Shown piece after piece: positions 12,174 to 31,714 of a DNA stretch of 33,981 nucleotides. The position numbers and the translations under genes are program-made. Position 1 is the first letter of the stretch, and each line of letters starts with the position of its first letter. The notes under the pieces are model-generated. The model was not told the origin of the DNA. It searched no databases and was given only the letters and a program-made list of their open reading frames with translations. The stretch is from a virus: the IMG/VR virus record IMGVR_UViG_3300044641_001380, positions 1 through 33,981 of that record; one strand, 5' to 3'.

Positions 12174-14393
12174 TTAGGTTCCTGCGTAAACTGCTACCCG
12201 GTAATCAAGACCGAGTAGGGTCATCTTGAGCGGCAAGGTCTGCGTCACTTCGATAGCTTGCTCCCGGCTGTAACCCAGCACGCCATTGACCCGCTTGATG
12301 CCCGTGAATGTAGGCATCGGCAGATCAAGCAGAGGGTTGTCCAACAGTCTGGTGGTGACAGGTTGGTTGTTGATGTTCAATTCCTGAGTGTCTTTCAAAA
12401 TCGCACTGATCTCGACAATGCGCTTTTTGAACCCAATGCGCTGCCCAGTTTGCAGCTTCAGCTCCACAGGCATGGTTTTTAGGTAAACGGTGTATGGGAG
12501 GCCAACCTCATAGCTGACCGTACTTGCCCGGTCAAATGTGACAGAGCCGCCACCGCTGACGGTTTCGTTGGACTGCGGCACGCCATCAGTGATCACATTG
12601 AGAGACTTGGCAATATGCGGCAGACTGCTTGCGCTGGCAGCAGCACCGCCCGTAAAAGCACAGTCCGTATACAGCGTGTCCATGAAGCGCTCAACAAAGT
12701 ACCTAGTGGTGCCATTAAACACCCGCTTTGTCACACAGTAAATGTCGGTCACATCCACGCCCACATCGACAAACTCGCCATCGGTGGTGAACTCGCTGGG
12801 CGAGGTGATCTGCTGGCTACGCATCACCGAAAACACGGCCATGCTGCCATCTGTGGTGTTGGTCATCAGTAGCAGATCAGACTCGTCTGTGCTGGATGCA
12901 CGGCGCATAGCAATACGCTGCGGCCCCTTGAGCAGATGGCCAGATAGCAGAGAGATACGCTGCGTGATATAGGTCAGCTGCGTGTCAGAGAACACAAACT
13001 CGTTGAGACTCTTGCCCTGGCGCTGGATGTAGACCGAGCCGGTTTCCAGAGTCAGCACCCTGGTGCCAGGCTTGATGCCGTTGCGGCTGACGTTCTTGAA
13101 TGTGAAGGTCAGAGGCGTGATCGGGTCTGTGCCTTGTTGCGGCACATAGAACTCGCCACCAGTAGTGAACACCTGGAAGTCACGCGAGCTGATGATGTCT
13201 GTTACTACGTTGAGTTCATTTGTGTCCAGCGTTGCCTCGACCGCATCATCGTCTAGAGACTCGGTTGGCACAAAGTCGAAAAACAGCCCGATCTTGCTGC
13301 CCCAGATGGTGCTAGGCCGGGACTTGCTGCCGCCAAAGTACAGACGCCCCTCATGGAAGGTGACCGTGCGCGGCCAACCCTTGGTGCTTGACCAAACATC
13401 CTCGTAGTTGTGCTCCAGCTCCCAGCGGCCAGCATCAATGGCATTCGTGTTGAAGAACGGGTACTCGGTCACCGCTTCGACCACGGTTGCAGAGACATAG
13501 CGCAGAATCCTGGCCCGCCCCTGCGGCTGCACGTTGACGTACTGGTTAACCGATTGGGTCGTCCAGGTAGTGATCTCGTAATTGCTGGTGGCGTTTGGCG
13601 CTGTGGTGAACGCGACATCGACGGTGGCCACCTTGGTGCTGCCGACATAGTCCTCAATGAGCCTTACCTGACCAGCACCAGTGCCGCTGGTGATGGTGAC
13701 ATACATGCCGTTGTAGATGTCGTCGGTGGCGCTGGCCGTCGATTTCAGCGTAATGGTGGTGCTGGTGCCGGCCTGCGCTGCGCCGCTGTCGTGGTGCGTT
13801 GTCGAGGCGGTCAACGTCACATTGCCAGCCACCGCAGACGGTGTCAGCGTTGAGCCGTTGTTGGTGTGGAAGTCGATGTTGAATGCGTACTTTGGGATGC
13901 TGTCAAACGTGACTGTGGTGGCCGTCCAGCTTGCGTCTGTAGCACCACGCACTAGCTTGATTGGTTGCAGATCAGGATGCACCACAATCAATGTGTCGGC
14001 GCTCTGTGTCCAGCACATATCGTCAACCATGTCGCTGGTCAACGCGGTAATCGCCAGATAGTTATTGCCGCTGCCATTGATGTTGGCCACCACATTGCCG
14101 GCCTTGATCACATACATGCGCTGATGCGTGAAACACAGCATGTAACTGTCAGTTACAGAAAACTGAAAGGACACTAGGCGCACGCCGTTGCCAGCAGACT
14201 CGGTGCTGGTGTTTGGCAGCTCGAGGGTATGCTTAGTGCCAGGCCGGCGGCGCAAGCCACCCTGGGGCTGGATCAAAACATTGGTCGCCTTGGCCAGCGC
14301 ATTGGCATATTGCTGCAGGTCAATCCTAGAGCGCAGCAGCGGGTCAAGCTCTCCCGTACTGAAATTGGTTTGAACCTCGACAAAGCGGCTCAT
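12174..14393 (-). CDS. Tail tubular protein B (tail nozzle, gp12-like)
   Basis: A 739-residue tail protein. The start is diagnostic for the family: FVEVQTNFSTGELDPLLRSR, then a DLQQYANALAKATNVLIQPQ region and GGLRRRPGTKHT. The remainder is beta-rich (VRLVSFQFSVTDSYMLCFTH, MYVIKAG, LIVVHPDLQPIKLVR), as expected for the propeller-like nozzle closing the tail. It binds below the adaptor and provides the platform for fibres. The start ATG overlaps the adaptor stop by one base (TGATG). Confidence 0.88.
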   Translation of the reverse strand: MSRFVEVQTNFSTGELDPLLRSRIDLQQYANALAKATNVLIQPQGGLRRRPGTKHTLELPNTSTESAGNGVRLVSFQFSVTDSYMLCFTHQRMYVIKAGNVVANINGSGNNYLAITALTSDMVDDMCWTQSADTLIVVHPDLQPIKLVRGATDASWTATTVTFDSIPKYAFNIDFHTNNGSTLTPSAVAGNVTLTASTTHHDSGAAQAGTSTTITLKSTASATDDIYNGMYVTITSGTGAGQVRLIEDYVGSTKVATVDVAFTTAPNATSNYEITTWTTQSVNQYVNVQPQGRARILRYVSATVVEAVTEYPFFNTNAIDAGRWELEHNYEDVWSSTKGWPRTVTFHEGRLYFGGSKSRPSTIWGSKIGLFFDFVPTESLDDDAVEATLDTNELNVVTDIISSRDFQVFTTGGEFYVPQQGTDPITPLTFTFKNVSRNGIKPGTRVLTLETGSVYIQRQGKSLNEFVFSDTQLTYITQRISLLSGHLLKGPQRIAMRRASSTDESDLLLMTNTTDGSMAVFSVMRSQQITSPSEFTTDGEFVDVGVDVTDIYCVTKRVFNGTTRYFVERFMDTLYTDCAFTGGAAASASSLPHIAKSLNVITDGVPQSNETVSGGGSVTFDRASTVSYEVGLPYTVYLKTMPVELKLQTGQRIGFKKRIVEISAILKDTQELNINNQPVTTRLLDNPLLDLPMPTFTGIKRVNGVLGYSREQAIEVTQTLPLKMTLLGLDYRVAVYAGT

Positions 14394-15007
14394 CAGTTCC
14401 TCACTGCGATCAGCGTGTAATCGTCGATGATACGGATCTGGTTGCTCTGACCATCAATCTGGGTCGCCTGCCTGAAGTAGCCACCACGGCCATTCTCAGA
14501 CGGGTCGCCAGTGGCCACTCGCTGCCATTTGTTGGCCTTGTCTTGCTGCTCTGTAATAGCCTCTGCAATGTGCCATGCCACCATGTACTTGAGCAGCTGC
14601 ACGAAGTAATGCGGCATTGCGTACTCAGGCACGCTGTACTGGTAATCAATGTAGACCGCCGGCAGATTGGCCAGCAGCTGATCGCCCTGGATCTCCCACT
14701 CCCTGCGGACATTGGCACCCACTGCGGCAGTGTCATATACAGCACGCGGGCCAGCAAGGCGATCGCCTGGCAGTTGGTATGCGTACTGCCATACATTGGT
14801 CGGCGCAGTCACCAGCTGGGCAAGCTGCACCTTCTTGGTTGCAAAACTCCACGGGTACATGCTGAGGGTGGAGTCGCGGATATCTGGGTAAAGTCGATCG
14901 CAAACGCTCGACTCATCTGTGCCATCATTAAAGGACGAAATGGCCTTCGCGCCCAGCAGCAACAGTGCGTCTGAGCAGATAGTGATTCCTGTATCGCCTG
15001 CGGCCAT
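14393..15007 (-). CDS. Tail tubular protein A (adaptor, gp11-like)
   Basis: A 204-residue adaptor that sits between portal and nozzle. Family signs include the start TGITICSDALLLLGAKAISS, the YPDIRDSTLSMYPWSFATKK helix-loop, YQLPGDRLAGPRAVYD, and IDYQYSVPEYAMPHYFVQLL followed by an aromatic helix. A GAGG ribosome site precedes the ATG. It follows a hairpin that separates it from the capsid/decoration unit, so its transcription may be partly reduced compared with the capsid. Confidence 0.85.
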   Translation of the reverse strand: MAAGDTGITICSDALLLLGAKAISSFNDGTDESSVCDRLYPDIRDSTLSMYPWSFATKKVQLAQLVTAPTNVWQYAYQLPGDRLAGPRAVYDTAAVGANVRREWEIQGDQLLANLPAVYIDYQYSVPEYAMPHYFVQLLKYMVAWHIAEAITEQQDKANKWQRVATGDPSENGRGGYFRQATQIDGQSNQIRIIDDYTLIAVRN

Positions 15008-15028
15008 AGTGTCCTCGTGATGTAAGAA

Positions 15029-15060
15029 GGGCCAGCCCCCGAGTACTCAGTGGCTGGCCC
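15029..15060 (-). terminator. Hairpin after the decoration gene, partial terminator
   Basis: Arms GGGCCAGCC (15029-15037) and GGCTGGCCC (15052-15060) pair perfectly over 9 bp with a 14-nt loop. On the minus strand the hairpin lies between the decoration and adaptor genes, and it is followed by TTCTTACA, only a weak U-tract. It could cause partial termination or protect the 3' end of an abundant capsid/decoration transcript, as the terminator after T7 gene 10 does. Confidence 0.6.
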
Positions 15061-15078
15061 AGTTCTTGATGCCGACGA

Positions 15079-15357
15079 TCAATCGCCGTCGGTGTTCGCC
15101 AACGTGGTGCCGTCAGTCACATCCACCACACCAGAGGCGTTGGACACCACATACACAAGGGTGACAACGGCGGTTGTGCCGGTCGAAGTCACACAGTGAA
15201 TGATGTCGCCCACCTCAAGGGTGTTGGCCAGCGAGTTGAAATACCCGCTGGTGTTGACGTCAGCAATGGCGTCGGTGGTCTTGTAACCATACATCGACGG
15301 GGCATTGCCACGCTTGCTGGCGCTGTAGGCGGTAAAGCCATCTGCAGAGTAAGCCAT
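15079..15357 (-). CDS. Probable head decoration / capsid-associated protein
   Basis: A 92-residue protein directly downstream of the capsid gene. It has a Ser/Tyr/Ala-rich start, a YKTTDAIADVNTSGYFNSLA segment, then strands LEVGDIIHCVTSTGTTAVVT and VYVVSNASGVVDV. Small beta proteins of this kind, with GYFN and VGDII motifs, are found next to capsid genes in many podoviruses and are usually virion proteins. An AGGAGGG ribosome site spans the gap after the capsid stop, which predicts high expression. Role as decoration is inferred from position and expression signals. Confidence 0.6.
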   Translation of the reverse strand: MAYSADGFTAYSASKRGNAPSMYGYKTTDAIADVNTSGYFNSLANTLEVGDIIHCVTSTGTTAVVTLVYVVSNASGVVDVTDGTTLANTDGD

Positions 15358-15373: not shown

Positions 15374-16228
15374 TTAAGCCGCAGCCGCAGTGTCGCGGGC
15401 GGTGATCTTCACGATACCCTCGCTGTCGATCGCAACAGAGCCAGCCGAGAACAGCGCATTGACAAGCCAGCTGGTCTTCTCGGGGATGTAGTTGATCTCA
15501 GTCTTGGGAGCGATGCCTTCTGCGTAGCCGATCGCATCCTTGTGGAATGCAAACAGCGTACGGTCGCTAGAGCCGTCGATCGGCAGGCCGCCTTCAGAAC
15601 GGTCACCCAGCACATGGAAGGTAAAGCCCATGAACTGGTTGATCTCACCCTGCACAAGCGCCTTGACCGTGTTGAAGTCAGAAGAAGTCACCGAGGTCTG
15701 CTCCAGCATCGCGGCCAACGAATTGGCGTGGATGATGATGTGACGGCCATCAGACGGCACATTCTTCTGGTTCAGGATCTTGGCAGCTTCGCGCAGCTTG
15801 GCGATGTTCATGTTGGTGTTCGAGCCACCAATAGAGTTCGCCACGGTGCCAGTGCTGGTAGCAGCATTCAGAGCATCCAGAATCAGCTGATCCTGGCGGC
15901 GACCGATAGCGTTACCGACAACCTGGACAAGCTCAGAGCGCTCGTCAAAGTTAACCTTGGCCTGCGAGAAGATGTCCGAGTACTCGGCAGCATTCCAGTC
16001 GCCAAGCGTGCAAGTCACGGTGCTAAACCCGACATTCATCGGGGTCACATCGGTCTGAGTCACGCGAGCGGTGGCAACGCCACGGCCTACTTTCGGAAAT
16101 TTCACTTGGGAGCCTTCGACGCCCCGACGCTGACGCACAGCGCCCACCAGCATTGCTTTGCCCTGGTAAGCCTGTTTGACCTCAGCATCGAACAGCGTAA
16201 CAAAGGCGTTTGAGAGAGAAACGCTCAT
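15374..16228 (-). CDS. Major capsid protein
   Basis: A 284-residue capsid protein of the HK97-fold type used by several marine and freshwater podoviruses. Visible signs: SLSNAFVTLFDAEVKQAYQG start, FPKVGRGVATARV, TLGDWNAAEYSDIFSQAKVN, a long helix with GRRQDQLILDALNAAT, HIIIHANSLAAMLEQ, and FAFHKDAIGYAEG near the C-terminus followed by a WLVNALFSAGSVAID strand. It is shorter than T7 gp10. It has its own promoter hexamers and a long leader (about 130 nt), and a GAGG ribosome site 8 nt before the ATG. The leader also holds a possible 21-codon frame at 16261-16326 with no clear ribosome site. Confidence 0.88.
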   Translation of the reverse strand: MSVSLSNAFVTLFDAEVKQAYQGKAMLVGAVRQRRGVEGSQVKFPKVGRGVATARVTQTDVTPMNVGFSTVTCTLGDWNAAEYSDIFSQAKVNFDERSELVQVVGNAIGRRQDQLILDALNAATSTGTVANSIGGSNTNMNIAKLREAAKILNQKNVPSDGRHIIIHANSLAAMLEQTSVTSSDFNTVKALVQGEINQFMGFTFHVLGDRSEGGLPIDGSSDRTLFAFHKDAIGYAEGIAPKTEINYIPEKTSWLVNALFSAGSVAIDSEGIVKITARDTAAAA

Positions 16229-16368
16229 TTGATTACCTCATTCGGTTGGTTGATCAGGGTTTATCGCATCGGTGAGCCAGTTGCCTGGGCCTGTGCTTGC
16301 TGCTTACGGCAGCCGCTCGTCAGCATCTCACTGCGGTCAGGGTCGGTTACCCGGTGGGCCTTGGCCGC

Positions 16369-16395
16369 ATTATAGGCTTTCCAATAATTTGTCAA
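16369..16395 (-). promoter_or_regulatory. Sigma70-type promoter for the capsid unit
   Basis: On the minus strand there is a perfect TTGACA (16390-16395) and a perfect TATAAT (16369-16374), separated by 15 bp. The spacer is shorter than the ideal 17, which may tone the promoter down or make it dependent on a factor. Transcription would begin near 16362 and read into the capsid gene. The -35 element lies 13 bp beyond the U-run of the terminator that ends the scaffold transcript. Confidence 0.75.
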
Positions 16396-16408
16396 CACCT
16401 TTTTTTAC

Positions 16409-16436
16409 AAAAAAACCCCGGCGGGTTAGGCCGGGG
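16409..16436 (-). terminator. Rho-independent terminator after the scaffold gene
   Basis: On the minus strand CCCCGGC (16430-16436) pairs with GCCGGGG (16416-16422) around a 7-nt loop and is followed by seven U (16409-16415) and, after GTA, another poly-U. It lies 37 nt after the scaffold stop. It is the strongest intrinsic terminator in the window and separates the terminase-portal-scaffold transcript from the capsid transcript. Confidence 0.9.
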
Positions 16437-16473
16437 CAAGTGGCAACTGCCTTGCGGCAGAAGGGAGACAATC

Positions 16474-17268
16474 TTATTTGGCAAACTGCTGGAACATCCG
16501 CTCCACCTTTTGCCGATATGCTGGGTCTGTTTTGTAGCGGGGATCGCCCACCATTTGGTAAAGCTCCTCTTGGCTGGGCGCTCCCTCGACAGGCGCAACC
16601 TCAATGGGCACCCGCCCTTCATACGCCTCGCGCAGCTTAACCAAAGCAGTCAGGCCGCGAGCCGTTCCACCCATGATCTTGAATTCATCAAAATCATCGG
16701 ATGACCAGATGCCTTTCTTGACCATGCCCCTGGCCCAATCGACCATGCCATTGATCACGGCCTGTCCGTTGGGCCCAAGCTGCTGGATCTCCTTGGCCGG
16801 GTCGATCATCTCGTCAGCCATAATCTGCTGGGCATTGGTCTGCAGCTGCTCGACTAGATCGTCGAACTGGGCCTGCGACAGGCCATTGTCCTTGGCCCAG
16901 CCGGTCAGGGTGCTGGCCATCGGGTTCTGATCTGCACCCTCGCCAAACTTGCTGACATCGTACTTGCCATCAGCCGGGGCATTGTGAGCACCCTTGCTGA
17001 TCTTGGCCCGTAGGTCGCGCCAGGACTTTGCCATGCCTTCAAGATCTGGCTCACCCTTCTCGGAGTTCCAGAAGTTCTCGGGCAGGTATTCGGGTCGCGT
17101 CTTGGGTGCGCCTGTGTTGGAGGCCGGTGCGGCAGGGTCTGCTGCAGATGTTGGCCTGTGGCTGATTTCCGTCTTCTGCGGGTTTTCCGCAGGGGTATTG
17201 GGGTCGTCGATGGTCGCGCTGTCCAGTAGGCCAGTGTTGCCACCGGGCTGGTCATTGGTTTCGCTCAT
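16474..17268 (-). CDS. Scaffold (capsid assembly) protein, gp9-like
   Basis: A 264-residue protein between portal and capsid genes, the standard scaffold position. The first ~55 residues are disordered and acidic/Pro-rich. Residues about 58-85 carry the podovirus scaffold signature (RPEYLPENFWNSEKGEPDLE, then GMAKSWRDLR). A helical middle with DNGLSQAQFDDLVEQLQ follows, and the C-terminal helix-rich tail (APSQEELYQMVGDPRYKTDP) is the likely capsid-binding end. It starts with a 4-nt ATGA overlap with the Bbp19-like gene and ends just before the strong terminator. Confidence 0.85.
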   Translation of the reverse strand: MSETNDQPGGNTGLLDSATIDDPNTPAENPQKTEISHRPTSAADPAAPASNTGAPKTRPEYLPENFWNSEKGEPDLEGMAKSWRDLRAKISKGAHNAPADGKYDVSKFGEGADQNPMASTLTGWAKDNGLSQAQFDDLVEQLQTNAQQIMADEMIDPAKEIQQLGPNGQAVINGMVDWARGMVKKGIWSSDDFDEFKIMGGTARGLTALVKLREAYEGRVPIEVAPVEGAPSQEELYQMVGDPRYKTDPAYRQKVERMFQQFAK

Positions 17269-29316: not shown

Positions 29317-29516
29317 GCCAGTGCCAGGACATACTGGCCATGCTCGAGCGCGGCCCGGTCACCGCAATTGATGCACTGCAGCAAGCCGGCTGCTTTCGCC
29401 TGGCGGCCAGGATCGCAGACCTCAGAGCCAGTGGCCATGACATACACACCGAAACCGTCGTCACCCCAACGGGCAAGCACATTGCCCAATACACCCTGAA
29501 AGCGAGGAAAAAATAA
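29313..29516 (+). CDS. Small helix-turn-helix protein (HTH_39-like)
   Basis: A 67-residue protein: ILAMLERGPVTAIDALQQAG, CFRLAARIADLRASGHDIHT, then a two-strand wing (ETVVTPTGKHIAQYTL). This is the short winged helix-turn-helix known from many phages (HTH_39 type). It probably regulates the recombination operon or other early genes. Coupled to the neighbours by ATGA and TAATG. Confidence 0.8.
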   Translation: MSQCQDILAMLERGPVTAIDALQQAGCFRLAARIADLRASGHDIHTETVVTPTGKHIAQYTLKARKK

Positions 29517-30475
29517 TGGTAGGAAAAGTCACCCCCAACACCATGCTGTCAGCCAGCCGGCTGCCAGGCGTCATGGGCATCAGCCGGTACTCAAGCCCCA
29601 ATGATGAGCTTGAGTCCAGCATCCTGGCACTGCGCGGCCTGGAGACAGAGTTCGAGGCCAAGGAAGCCATGGAGTGGGGCAACATGATGGAGCCGCTGAT
29701 CCTGTCCGAGTCAGCCCGCCGGCTTGAGCTGGCCGACCTAGTCACCGATCACCCGGAGGCCAGGTTCCACGACAGCCTGCCCCTGTGCTGCAGCCTGGAC
29801 GGCACTGGAGATGGCCGGGGCCAGGTCATCAGGACAGACGCCGAGGCTGGCATTTATGTGGTTGGCCAGGACAGCATCACCCTGGACGGCATCGGCGTCC
29901 TCGAGGGCAAGCTCACCGCCATGGATGTCGAGGATGTGCCCCCGCTGTGGCGCGGCGTGGTGCAGCTGCAGGCCCAGATGGACATCATCAAGGCCAAGTG
30001 GGGCGCCGTCTGTGTGCTCTACCGTGGCACCGAGCTGCGGGTGTTTTTATTCGCCCCACACCAGGGCACGGTCGATCGCATCGCCCAGGTGGCCACCGAC
30101 TTCCAGCGCCGGCTGGACGCATGGAAGGCCACCGGCACGGTGGAGTACTACCCGCCGGCAGACAAGGAGAAGTGGCCAGACGGGCGGGGCATGTATCCAG
30201 CCGTTGAGGAACCTGTGCAGCTGCCTGGTGAGGCCGCAGTGCTGGCAGACCAGATTGCCTACTGGCGGGGCGTCAACAAGAAGAATGAGGAGGAAATCAC
30301 CAAGGCCGAGGAGCAGCTAAAAAAGCTGATGGGCCATGCCACCGTGGGTCTGGCCGGCAAGTGGCAGATCAAGTGGCCGACCAGGTATTACCAGGCGCAG
30401 CCTGCCAAGACTGTGCCGGCCAAGGAAGCCTACACAATCAGGCTGGCCAACGTATCAATCAAGGAGCTGAAGTGA
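29516..30475 (+). CDS. YqaJ-type viral exonuclease
   Basis: A 319-residue nuclease of the lambda-exonuclease/YqaJ fold. SASRLPGVMGISRYSSPNDE leads the domain, EWGNMMEPLI gives E59, CSLDGTGDG gives D95, VLEGKLTA gives E130-x-K132, and VVQLQAQMDI the conserved glutamines. It would degrade one strand of duplex ends to make single strands for RecT. The C-terminal ~80 residues contain a charged helix (NKKNEEEITKAEEQLKKLMG). Stop/start TAATG overlap precedes it, and a GTGA overlap follows. Confidence 0.87.
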   Translation: MVGKVTPNTMLSASRLPGVMGISRYSSPNDELESSILALRGLETEFEAKEAMEWGNMMEPLILSESARRLELADLVTDHPEARFHDSLPLCCSLDGTGDGRGQVIRTDAEAGIYVVGQDSITLDGIGVLEGKLTAMDVEDVPPLWRGVVQLQAQMDIIKAKWGAVCVLYRGTELRVFLFAPHQGTVDRIAQVATDFQRRLDAWKATGTVEYYPPADKEKWPDGRGMYPAVEEPVQLPGEAAVLADQIAYWRGVNKKNEEEITKAEEQLKKLMGHATVGLAGKWQIKWPTRYYQAQPAKTVPAKEAYTIRLANVSIKELK

Positions 30476-30657
30476 CAGAGCACCCTGAAGATCGCCTGCT
30501 GCAGGCACACCGCCGTGCTGTGGATGCAGTGCGGTTCAACATTGAGAAATGTACGGCAGAGGATGCCGACGAAATCGTGACGGCCATCGTGGCCCTCGTC
30601 TTTGAAACCATGCGTCAATACTTTCCAGGAGGCAACAATGCAATTGACAACCACTAA
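30472..30657 (+). CDS. Small helical protein between YqaJ and RecT
   Basis: A 61-residue acidic helical protein (EHPEDRLLQAHRRAVDAVRF, EDADEIVTAIVALVFETMRQ). It starts with GTG overlapping the exonuclease stop (GTGA), with AAGGAG 5 nt upstream, and runs 20 nt into the recT gene. Function unknown; it may be a helper of the pair. Confidence 0.6.
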   Translation: MTEHPEDRLLQAHRRAVDAVRFNIEKCTAEDADEIVTAIVALVFETMRQYFPGGNNAIDNH

Positions 30658-31714
30658 CCGACAGGGCTTTGCGCCCGCCACTCTTGACGAAGCCATGCGC
30701 TTTTCTGACATGCTGGCCAACAGCAGCATGGTGCCCAAGGCATACCAAGGCAAGCCCCAGGACATCCTGGTCTGTGTGCAGTGGGGCTATGAGATGGGCC
30801 TGGCCCCCATGCAGGCGCTGCAGAACATCGCCGTGATCAACGGCAAGCCAAGCGTGTACGGCGATGCGGCCATGGCCCTGGTGCAGGCCAGCCCGGTCTG
30901 CGAGGATGTCGAGGAATACTTTGAGAACGAAGGCACCCAGAACCCTATTGCGGTCTGCGTGGCCAAGCGGAAGGGGCGCAAGCCAGTAACCGCCAAGTTC
31001 AGCGTCGAGGACGCCAAGCGGGCCGGCCTGTGGGGCAAGCAGGGGCCGTGGCAGGCATACCCCAAGCGCATGATGCAGATGCGGGCCAGGGGGTTCGCGC
31101 TGCGCGACGCCTTCCCTGATGTGCTCAAGGGGCTGATCACCGCCGAGGAGGCCCAGGACTACCCGGCAGAGGGGTTGTCTCCTAATTCAGCTGTCAATAA
31201 GAGACAACCGCCGGCCAACCCGTTGGACGCGCTTGCAGCGCCGACCACCACCAGCGACCCTGCGGTCATTGCAGAAACATTCGCCCAAGACACAGAGGCC
31301 GAGGAGCTGGCCAACAAGAAAATTGACAAGGGGCTGAAGGCGCTGGATGAGGCCATAAACATTGCCGACAAGATGCTCGAGCAGTTCGAGGTTGTGGACA
31401 TCCCCGAGGCGACGGTGCAGGAAGAACCAGCAGCGGTGGGCGTGGTGGGCTACGGGGTGATGGTGCCAGGCAAGACAGAACCATTCAGTACGCATGCCAG
31501 CCTGGATGAATGGGCCGACGCCTACGAAGCCGTTGCCGAGAAAACCGCCATGGCAGGCAAGCGCCCGCCCAGGGAGCGGATGACCCTGCTGCGTGAGCTG
31601 CAGGAGGCCAACGATGCCACGCTCAAGCGGGTGGACACCGTCAAGAGGGTGCGTCACATGGCAGCCTACAGCAAGCGGCTGGCCGCCCTTGGAGCACTAA
31701 TCGGAGAGAAATAA
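30638..31714 (+). CDS. recT: RecT-family single-strand annealing protein
   Basis: A 358-residue protein. The core (about 10-190) has the RecT features SMVPKAYQGKPQDILVCVQW, GYEMGLAPMQALQNIAVING, KPSVYGDAAMALVQASPVC, and YPKRMMQMRARGFALRDAFP. It anneals complementary strands and works with the YqaJ exonuclease. The C-terminal part (about 190-358) is variable and helical, with Ala/Glu stretches and a basic end (KRVRHMAAYSKRLAALG). AGGAGG at 30627-30632 decides the ATG at 30638. Its 3' end overlaps the convergent endolysin gene by 18 bp. Confidence 0.88.
   Translation: MQLTTTNRQGFAPATLDEAMRFSDMLANSSMVPKAYQGKPQDILVCVQWGYEMGLAPMQALQNIAVINGKPSVYGDAAMALVQASPVCEDVEEYFENEGTQNPIAVCVAKRKGRKPVTAKFSVEDAKRAGLWGKQGPWQAYPKRMMQMRARGFALRDAFPDVLKGLITAEEAQDYPAEGLSPNSAVNKRQPPANPLDALAAPTTTSDPAVIAETFAQDTEAEELANKKIDKGLKALDEAINIADKMLEQFEVVDIPEATVQEEPAAVGVVGYGVMVPGKTEPFSTHASLDEWADAYEAVAEKTAMAGKRPPRERMTLLRELQEANDATLKRVDTVKRVRHMAAYSKRLAALGALIGEK

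Follow-up and report, generated by a model that had tools for sequence, protein, structure and literature searches.

A conserved four-hairpin leader RNA between the promoter and the capsid gene of aquatic phages related to MEP301

Behind the scaffold gene of the virus record analysed here, an intrinsic terminator and a consensus promoter are followed by a structured leader RNA of four hairpins which, judging from the sequences compared, is conserved in hundreds of aquatic phages. A sequence-only reading of the same DNA had described the terminator and the promoter and passed over the structured, conserved RNA that sets in at the predicted start of transcription. The explanation that we favour, with a little better than even confidence in it as a whole, is that a capsid-and-tail unit starts at this site and that the leader is a cis-acting 5' RNA on the capsid messenger. 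The structure of the leader is well shown; its function is what we infer.

Genes and signals around the boundary

The window, that is, the whole stretch of DNA that was analysed, has a length of 33,981 bases and is the virus record of a relative of the short-tailed phage MEP301. Its late genes lie on the minus strand and encode terminase-like, portal-like, scaffold, major capsid, tail tubular A-like and B-like, and internal virion proteins. The features discussed below are, in the direction of transcription:

16474..17268, minus strand: scaffold or capsid-assembly gene (phrog_1052, weak match), upstream of the boundary
16409..16437, minus strand: intrinsic terminator, 7 GC pairs and seven U
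16390..16395, minus strand: -35 box TTGACA, 6/6 consensus
16369..16374, minus strand: -10 box TATAAT, 6/6 consensus; its place relative to the leader RNA recurs in relatives
16257..16362, minus strand: structured leader RNA with four hairpins, from alignment, pair counts, covariance model and mutual-information scan
16339..16361, minus strand: hairpin H1, with an AGG/CCU base, a C-NN-A internal loop opposite a single C, and a CGG(GUAA)CCG tip
16318..16335, minus strand: hairpin H2, CAGU...GCUG, with a C-G closing pair
16296..16315, minus strand: hairpin H3, with a strongly conserved CGYAA loop and a GCAAGC 3' flank
16271..16291, minus strand: hairpin H4, with a C-NN-A / C internal loop as in H1 and a CCAG(GCAA)CUGG tip
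16236..16239, minus strand: capsid-gene Shine-Dalgarno sequence GAGG, not part of the conserved fold
15374..16228, minus strand: major capsid protein gene (phrog_3437)
12174..15357, minus strand: genes downstream of the capsid gene (phrog_18004 protein, tail tubular A-like, tail tubular B-like), probably cotranscribed with it

The MEP301 counterpart of the scaffold gene carries the annotation 'capsid assembly protein'. Elsewhere in the window, on the plus strand (29516-31714), two genes match the families of RecE-like exonucleases and RecT-like annealing proteins.

The earlier claim that a strong intrinsic terminator closes the scaffold gene is borne out. On the minus strand (16437-16409) the sequence reads CCCCGGC-CTAACCC-GCCGGGG and then TTTTTTT (16415-16409), so that a GC-rich hairpin of 8 pairs, 7 of them GC, adjoins a U tract, as is typical of such terminators. 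In three scans it had the highest GC-pair count among the terminator-like sites. A hit of Rfam model RF02278 on it is due to chance (score 24.7, cutoff 50). Among the relatives, 120 of 175 distinct sequences have an intrinsic terminator within 130 nt upstream, where shuffled sequences lead one to expect about 1.4. MEP301-like phages and several freshwater-type lineages are without it, and in MEP301 the scaffold stop codon lies only a few bases ahead of the -35 box.

The window scans found no strong minus-strand terminator after the capsid gene, so the tail genes are probably part of the capsid transcript. The idea that terminator and promoter isolate the capsid unit is not supported, given this lack and the absence of the upstream terminator from MEP301 and many relatives. 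The reading as a transcription boundary is right in outline: scaffold and capsid are separated by it, the promoter here is of the host type, and promoter-like sites recur in the relatives. The site would be the start of a capsid-plus-tail unit.

The promoter and its spacer

The two perfect hexamers had been described exactly: TTGACA begins after a gap of 13 nt behind the terminator (16408-16396), and a 15-nt spacer (AATTATTGGAAAGCC, 16389-16375) separates it from TATAAT in the same direction. The pattern TTGACA-N13-19-TATAAT has this single match in the window, and 0 of 100 dinucleotide shuffles contain it; a generic promoter scanner missed the site, as it tested spacers of 16-18 only. With 12/12 sigma-70 hexamer positions, the promoter sits at the short end (15 bp) of the working range of 15-19 bp, the optimum being 17. 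The short spacer had been taken to suggest dependence on a factor or on DNA twist. This is not borne out by published work, in which consensus promoters stay highly active with spacers anywhere from 15 to 19 bp (PMC8695583) and a test promoter with a 15-nt spacer is almost insensitive to DNA relaxation (PMC9303308).

The promoters of the relatives were picked by a simple score and their sequences are related, which applies to all of the following counts. The commonest forms are TTGCNN with a spacer of 16 or 17 bp. TTGACA is found with spacers of 15 (9 distinct cases), 18 (11) and 19 bp (3), and with 17 bp once only. Examples of its almost exclusive pairing with off-optimum spacers are L004, L015, L016, L065, L068, L073, L188 and L227, together with the window (16395-16369). 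Because there are 9 distinct TTGACA-N15 promoters, the recurring 15-bp spacer is, on the sequences at hand, a lineage feature and not an error. A perfect -35 box with an off-optimum spacer, as against an imperfect one with a near-optimum spacer, may mean that promoter strength is held down; the pattern is only suggestive, and seems to agree more readily with tuning of strength than with a need for an activator.

Of 159 distinct upstream regions, 132 have a -10-like hexamer at a distance of 4-9 nt from the start of the conserved leader; in 104 of the 132 the gap between the end of the hexamer and the RNA is 6-7 nt, which places the fold at +1/+2 of the predicted transcript. MEP301, a close relative, lacks an RNA polymerase (PMC8024684). 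RNA polymerase with a sigma-70-type factor of the host would start the late capsid-and-tail unit at about A16362 (predicted), while the upstream terminator, where present, would stop transcripts from the scaffold and portal genes, so that leader and capsid would be transcribed only from the capsid promoter.

Structure and covariation of the leader RNA

Relatives were collected as 80 IMG/VR loci with capsid proteins 92-96% identical to that of the window, and further loci were fetched by a DNA pattern, by the MEP301 capsid and by the more distant SI2 capsid. In the regions upstream of the capsid gene, the part between the -10 box and the start codon is conserved above the level of the promoter itself. 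We aligned 42 diverse relatives, 36 of which were picked for less than 80% likeness. Standard pairs make up 95.9% of the cells, and 14 of the 24 pairs show changes on both sides. Such double compensatory cells number 165, compared with 49 (sd 6) in shuffles, and sliding the partners as a control lowers the paired share to 19-41%; all sequences come from one phage clade, and these counts are not independent events. A mutual-information scan that assumes no structure gave the same result: each of its eight highest-ranking column pairs is a helix pair of the four hairpins. The helices therefore covary beyond the controls, as expected of a structured RNA family, and the window leader scores 110 bits against the covariance model. 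H1 continues down through A2-U34, with two Watson-Crick swaps, each in single sequences.

Folded alone, the window leader is no better than its shuffles (z -0.06), and the case for the structure is thus a comparative one. GNRA tetraloops account for 71 of 189 four-base loops on the sense strand and for 10 on the antisense strand; together with the recurring distance from the -10 box, this supports the sense strand as the probable folded form. The distance lends support to the promoter as well. Given the predicted start at A16362, the first helix begins at nucleotides 1-2 of the transcript. The RNA ends about 17 nt before the Shine-Dalgarno sequence, and the capsid gene follows about 30 nt past the RNA.

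The same asymmetric internal loop is present in H1 and in H4: a G, then C-N-N-A, then a pyrimidine on one side, and a single C on the other. Next to the loop A comes a pair that is normally C-G or U-A. C-A takes its place only if the loop is CCC or CCU (47/47 cases in H1, 3/3 in H4) and never with other loops (0/86 in H1, 0/145 in H4). A non-Watson-Crick rule that holds at two places in one RNA argues for a genuine three-dimensional motif, as far as sequence can tell.

Several other identities were considered for the leader and given up. The string CTGACGAG, which recalls a hammerhead ribozyme, belongs to H2 and is not conserved. Neither the start codon nor the frame of a short ORF in the leader (22 codons long in the window) is conserved, and the same is true of a hairpin ACC..GGU that would mask the Shine-Dalgarno sequence. 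A likeness to the 16S rRNA sequence GGCUCACC was dropped, as its middle letters vary.

Distribution

In three sets, the covariance model, built from the 42 sequences, matched those loci whose upstream sequence was long enough. Its matches to loci found by the MEP301 capsid, mostly outside the training set, reach 105 bits. Each of 22 phage records of 31-40 kb, MEP301 among them, has one convincing copy of the RNA just upstream of the major capsid gene. For the matches of the DNA pattern, a capsid gene lies just downstream in 187 of 241, typically 55-70 nt from the conserved core. The remaining 54 comprise 49 chance-like matches in contigs of bacterial genomes and others that run off contig ends or are chance-like as well; out of n=50 matches in bacterial genomes only L112, a contig with a phage capsid gene, looks real. 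Two apparent second copies were rejected. One in the window (29177, 13.6 bits) lies inside another ORF and is judged to be due to chance, and one in L136 (1-1280) is an inverted segment of scaffold, terminator, promoter and leader at the end of a probably chimeric contig.

We were not able to find any match of the Rfam 15 covariance models, at the gathering threshold, over the leader of the window or of ten relatives. Within this comparison with Rfam 15, the leader RNA is a family absent from Rfam.

In more distant capsid relatives (SI2-like, Vibrio and Pelagibacter phages) the leader is absent or undetectable. Weak covariance matches lie just upstream of distant capsid genes in HTVC028P / L336 (2374-2472, 14.7 bits) and in L390 (2907-2975, 11.1 bits), and these could possibly be remote relatives of the leader RNA. 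The SI2-like sister phages, whose capsid is about 50% identical, carry another leader in this position, also strongly conserved but different, and in many of them a similar terminator lies upstream. This second leader reads AGATGCAGACCC...GGCACC...AGGCCC...CTCGATC in L338-L388 and L083 (e.g. in L343, about 110 nt before 3001). A few compensatory changes suggest that this leader may be structured too.

Possible functions of the leader

Of the proteins of a virion, the major capsid protein is usually required in the largest amount, and the control of its dose in small phages without an RNA polymerase of their own is where such a leader would be of interest. In the explanation that we favour, the first ~105 nt of the transcript would fold into the four-hairpin RNA, with the capsid ribosome-binding site further downstream, and the RNA would most likely act in cis on the capsid messenger, stabilising it, binding a protein, or both. 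RppH and RNase E need single-stranded 5' ends, and 5' structures therefore stabilise messengers (PMC3997798). The predicted closed 5' end of the leader should keep both enzymes off and give a longer-lived mRNA; by this analogy, stabilisation of an abundantly needed messenger would be the most economical function. Since the invariant loop letters go beyond what simple stabilisation calls for, an additional role is to be expected, most likely one involving a protein, and the conserved loops, above all the doubled internal loop, are the most likely sites of binding.

A less probable candidate, yet a serious one, is an autogenous translational operator, in which the capsid protein, or else the scaffold protein, would attach to the RNA (perhaps to the doubled loop) and tune capsid translation to assembly. 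The strict link of the RNA to the major capsid gene and the presence of one internal loop twice under the same constraint would both agree with this, and so would the different leader of the SI2-like sisters, which is expected if leader and capsid diverge together. However, masking of the Shine-Dalgarno sequence is not conserved and the RNA ends well before it. Among the relatives we saw no conserved pairing between the RNA and the Shine-Dalgarno region, which varies and lies outside the fold, and so a switch mechanism or occlusion is not evident. A slightly more tentative proposal is that the RNA is a protein-binding module with two sites, in which the identical internal loops of H1 and H4 are recognised jointly, by the capsid protein, the scaffold protein or a host protein, and that capsid synthesis is matched to assembly in this way. 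If this is true, the leader would stand for a kind of capsid-leader RNA that is widespread among aquatic phages and had not been described before, and sister clades would have analogues that differ in sequence.

It is unlikely that the RNA is a non-coding RNA, trans-acting or processed, that does no more than borrow the capsid promoter, e.g. to titrate a host RNA-binding protein. A compact fold that starts at the promoter and has invariant loop letters would suit such a role, but neither a conserved terminator nor an evident site of processing separates the RNA from the capsid gene (a window scan found no terminator in the leader), the distance from the conserved core to the start codon is kept within narrow limits, and the genomes searched contain no convincing copy elsewhere. 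Even less likely is a riboswitch or another sensor of a host small molecule. This analogy draws on the conserved multi-hairpin 5' leader and on the glutamine riboswitches of some marine phages (PMC9004378), but no expression platform was seen, neither a terminator nor a conserved anti-Shine-Dalgarno sequence, and no Rfam riboswitch matched the window or the ten relatives.

A neutral leader behind a terminator and promoter that do all the work is scarcely credible, as the non-significant single-sequence fold, which would agree with it, is contradicted by the compensatory changes and the slid controls. Just as improbable is an element that acts as DNA (a cruciform, or a replication or packaging site): hairpins can form in DNA, and the C-A cells at one pair would be G-T on the other strand, but the GNRA loops favour the sense strand and the position is locked to the promoter and the capsid gene.

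The favoured explanation, a cis-acting RNA on the capsid messenger, is directly testable, as the folded RNA lies at the 5' end of that messenger in a clade that is common in IMG/VR and of which one phage, MEP301, is in culture on an OM43 host. A family absent from Rfam in which a loop with a non-Watson-Crick rule occurs twice should also be useful for work on RNA motifs.

Comparison with known systems

One of the closest systems is MEP301 itself, which shares with its IMG/VR relatives the same RNA, promoter region and capsid gene, with one copy per genome. It differs in that it has no terminator and its promoter is TTGCAA-N17-TATATT; in the stretch of its record considered here, the RNA is unannotated.

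The C-loop motif is an asymmetric internal loop whose longer strand carries a C and an A. The loop of H1 and H4 is like the C-loop of T-box stem I (PMC7583486) in being asymmetric, with C and A on the longer strand, a likeness that consists of sequence resemblance and the C-A/CCY rule only.

On the side of function, the 5'-terminal stabilising stem-loops of the E. coli ompA and papA mRNAs, as they appear through the references in PMC3997798, belong, like the leader, to abundant mRNAs of structural proteins and close the 5' end, as the leader is predicted to do. Unlike them, the phage leader has four hairpins, one internal loop in two copies and invariant letters in its loops, and its stabilising effect is a presumed one. 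Autogenous leader operators, such as ribosomal-protein leaders and the targets of T4 translational repressors, are likewise conserved structured leaders on mRNAs of abundant proteins, whereas the phage leader shows no occlusion of the ribosome-binding site and its binding protein is putative.
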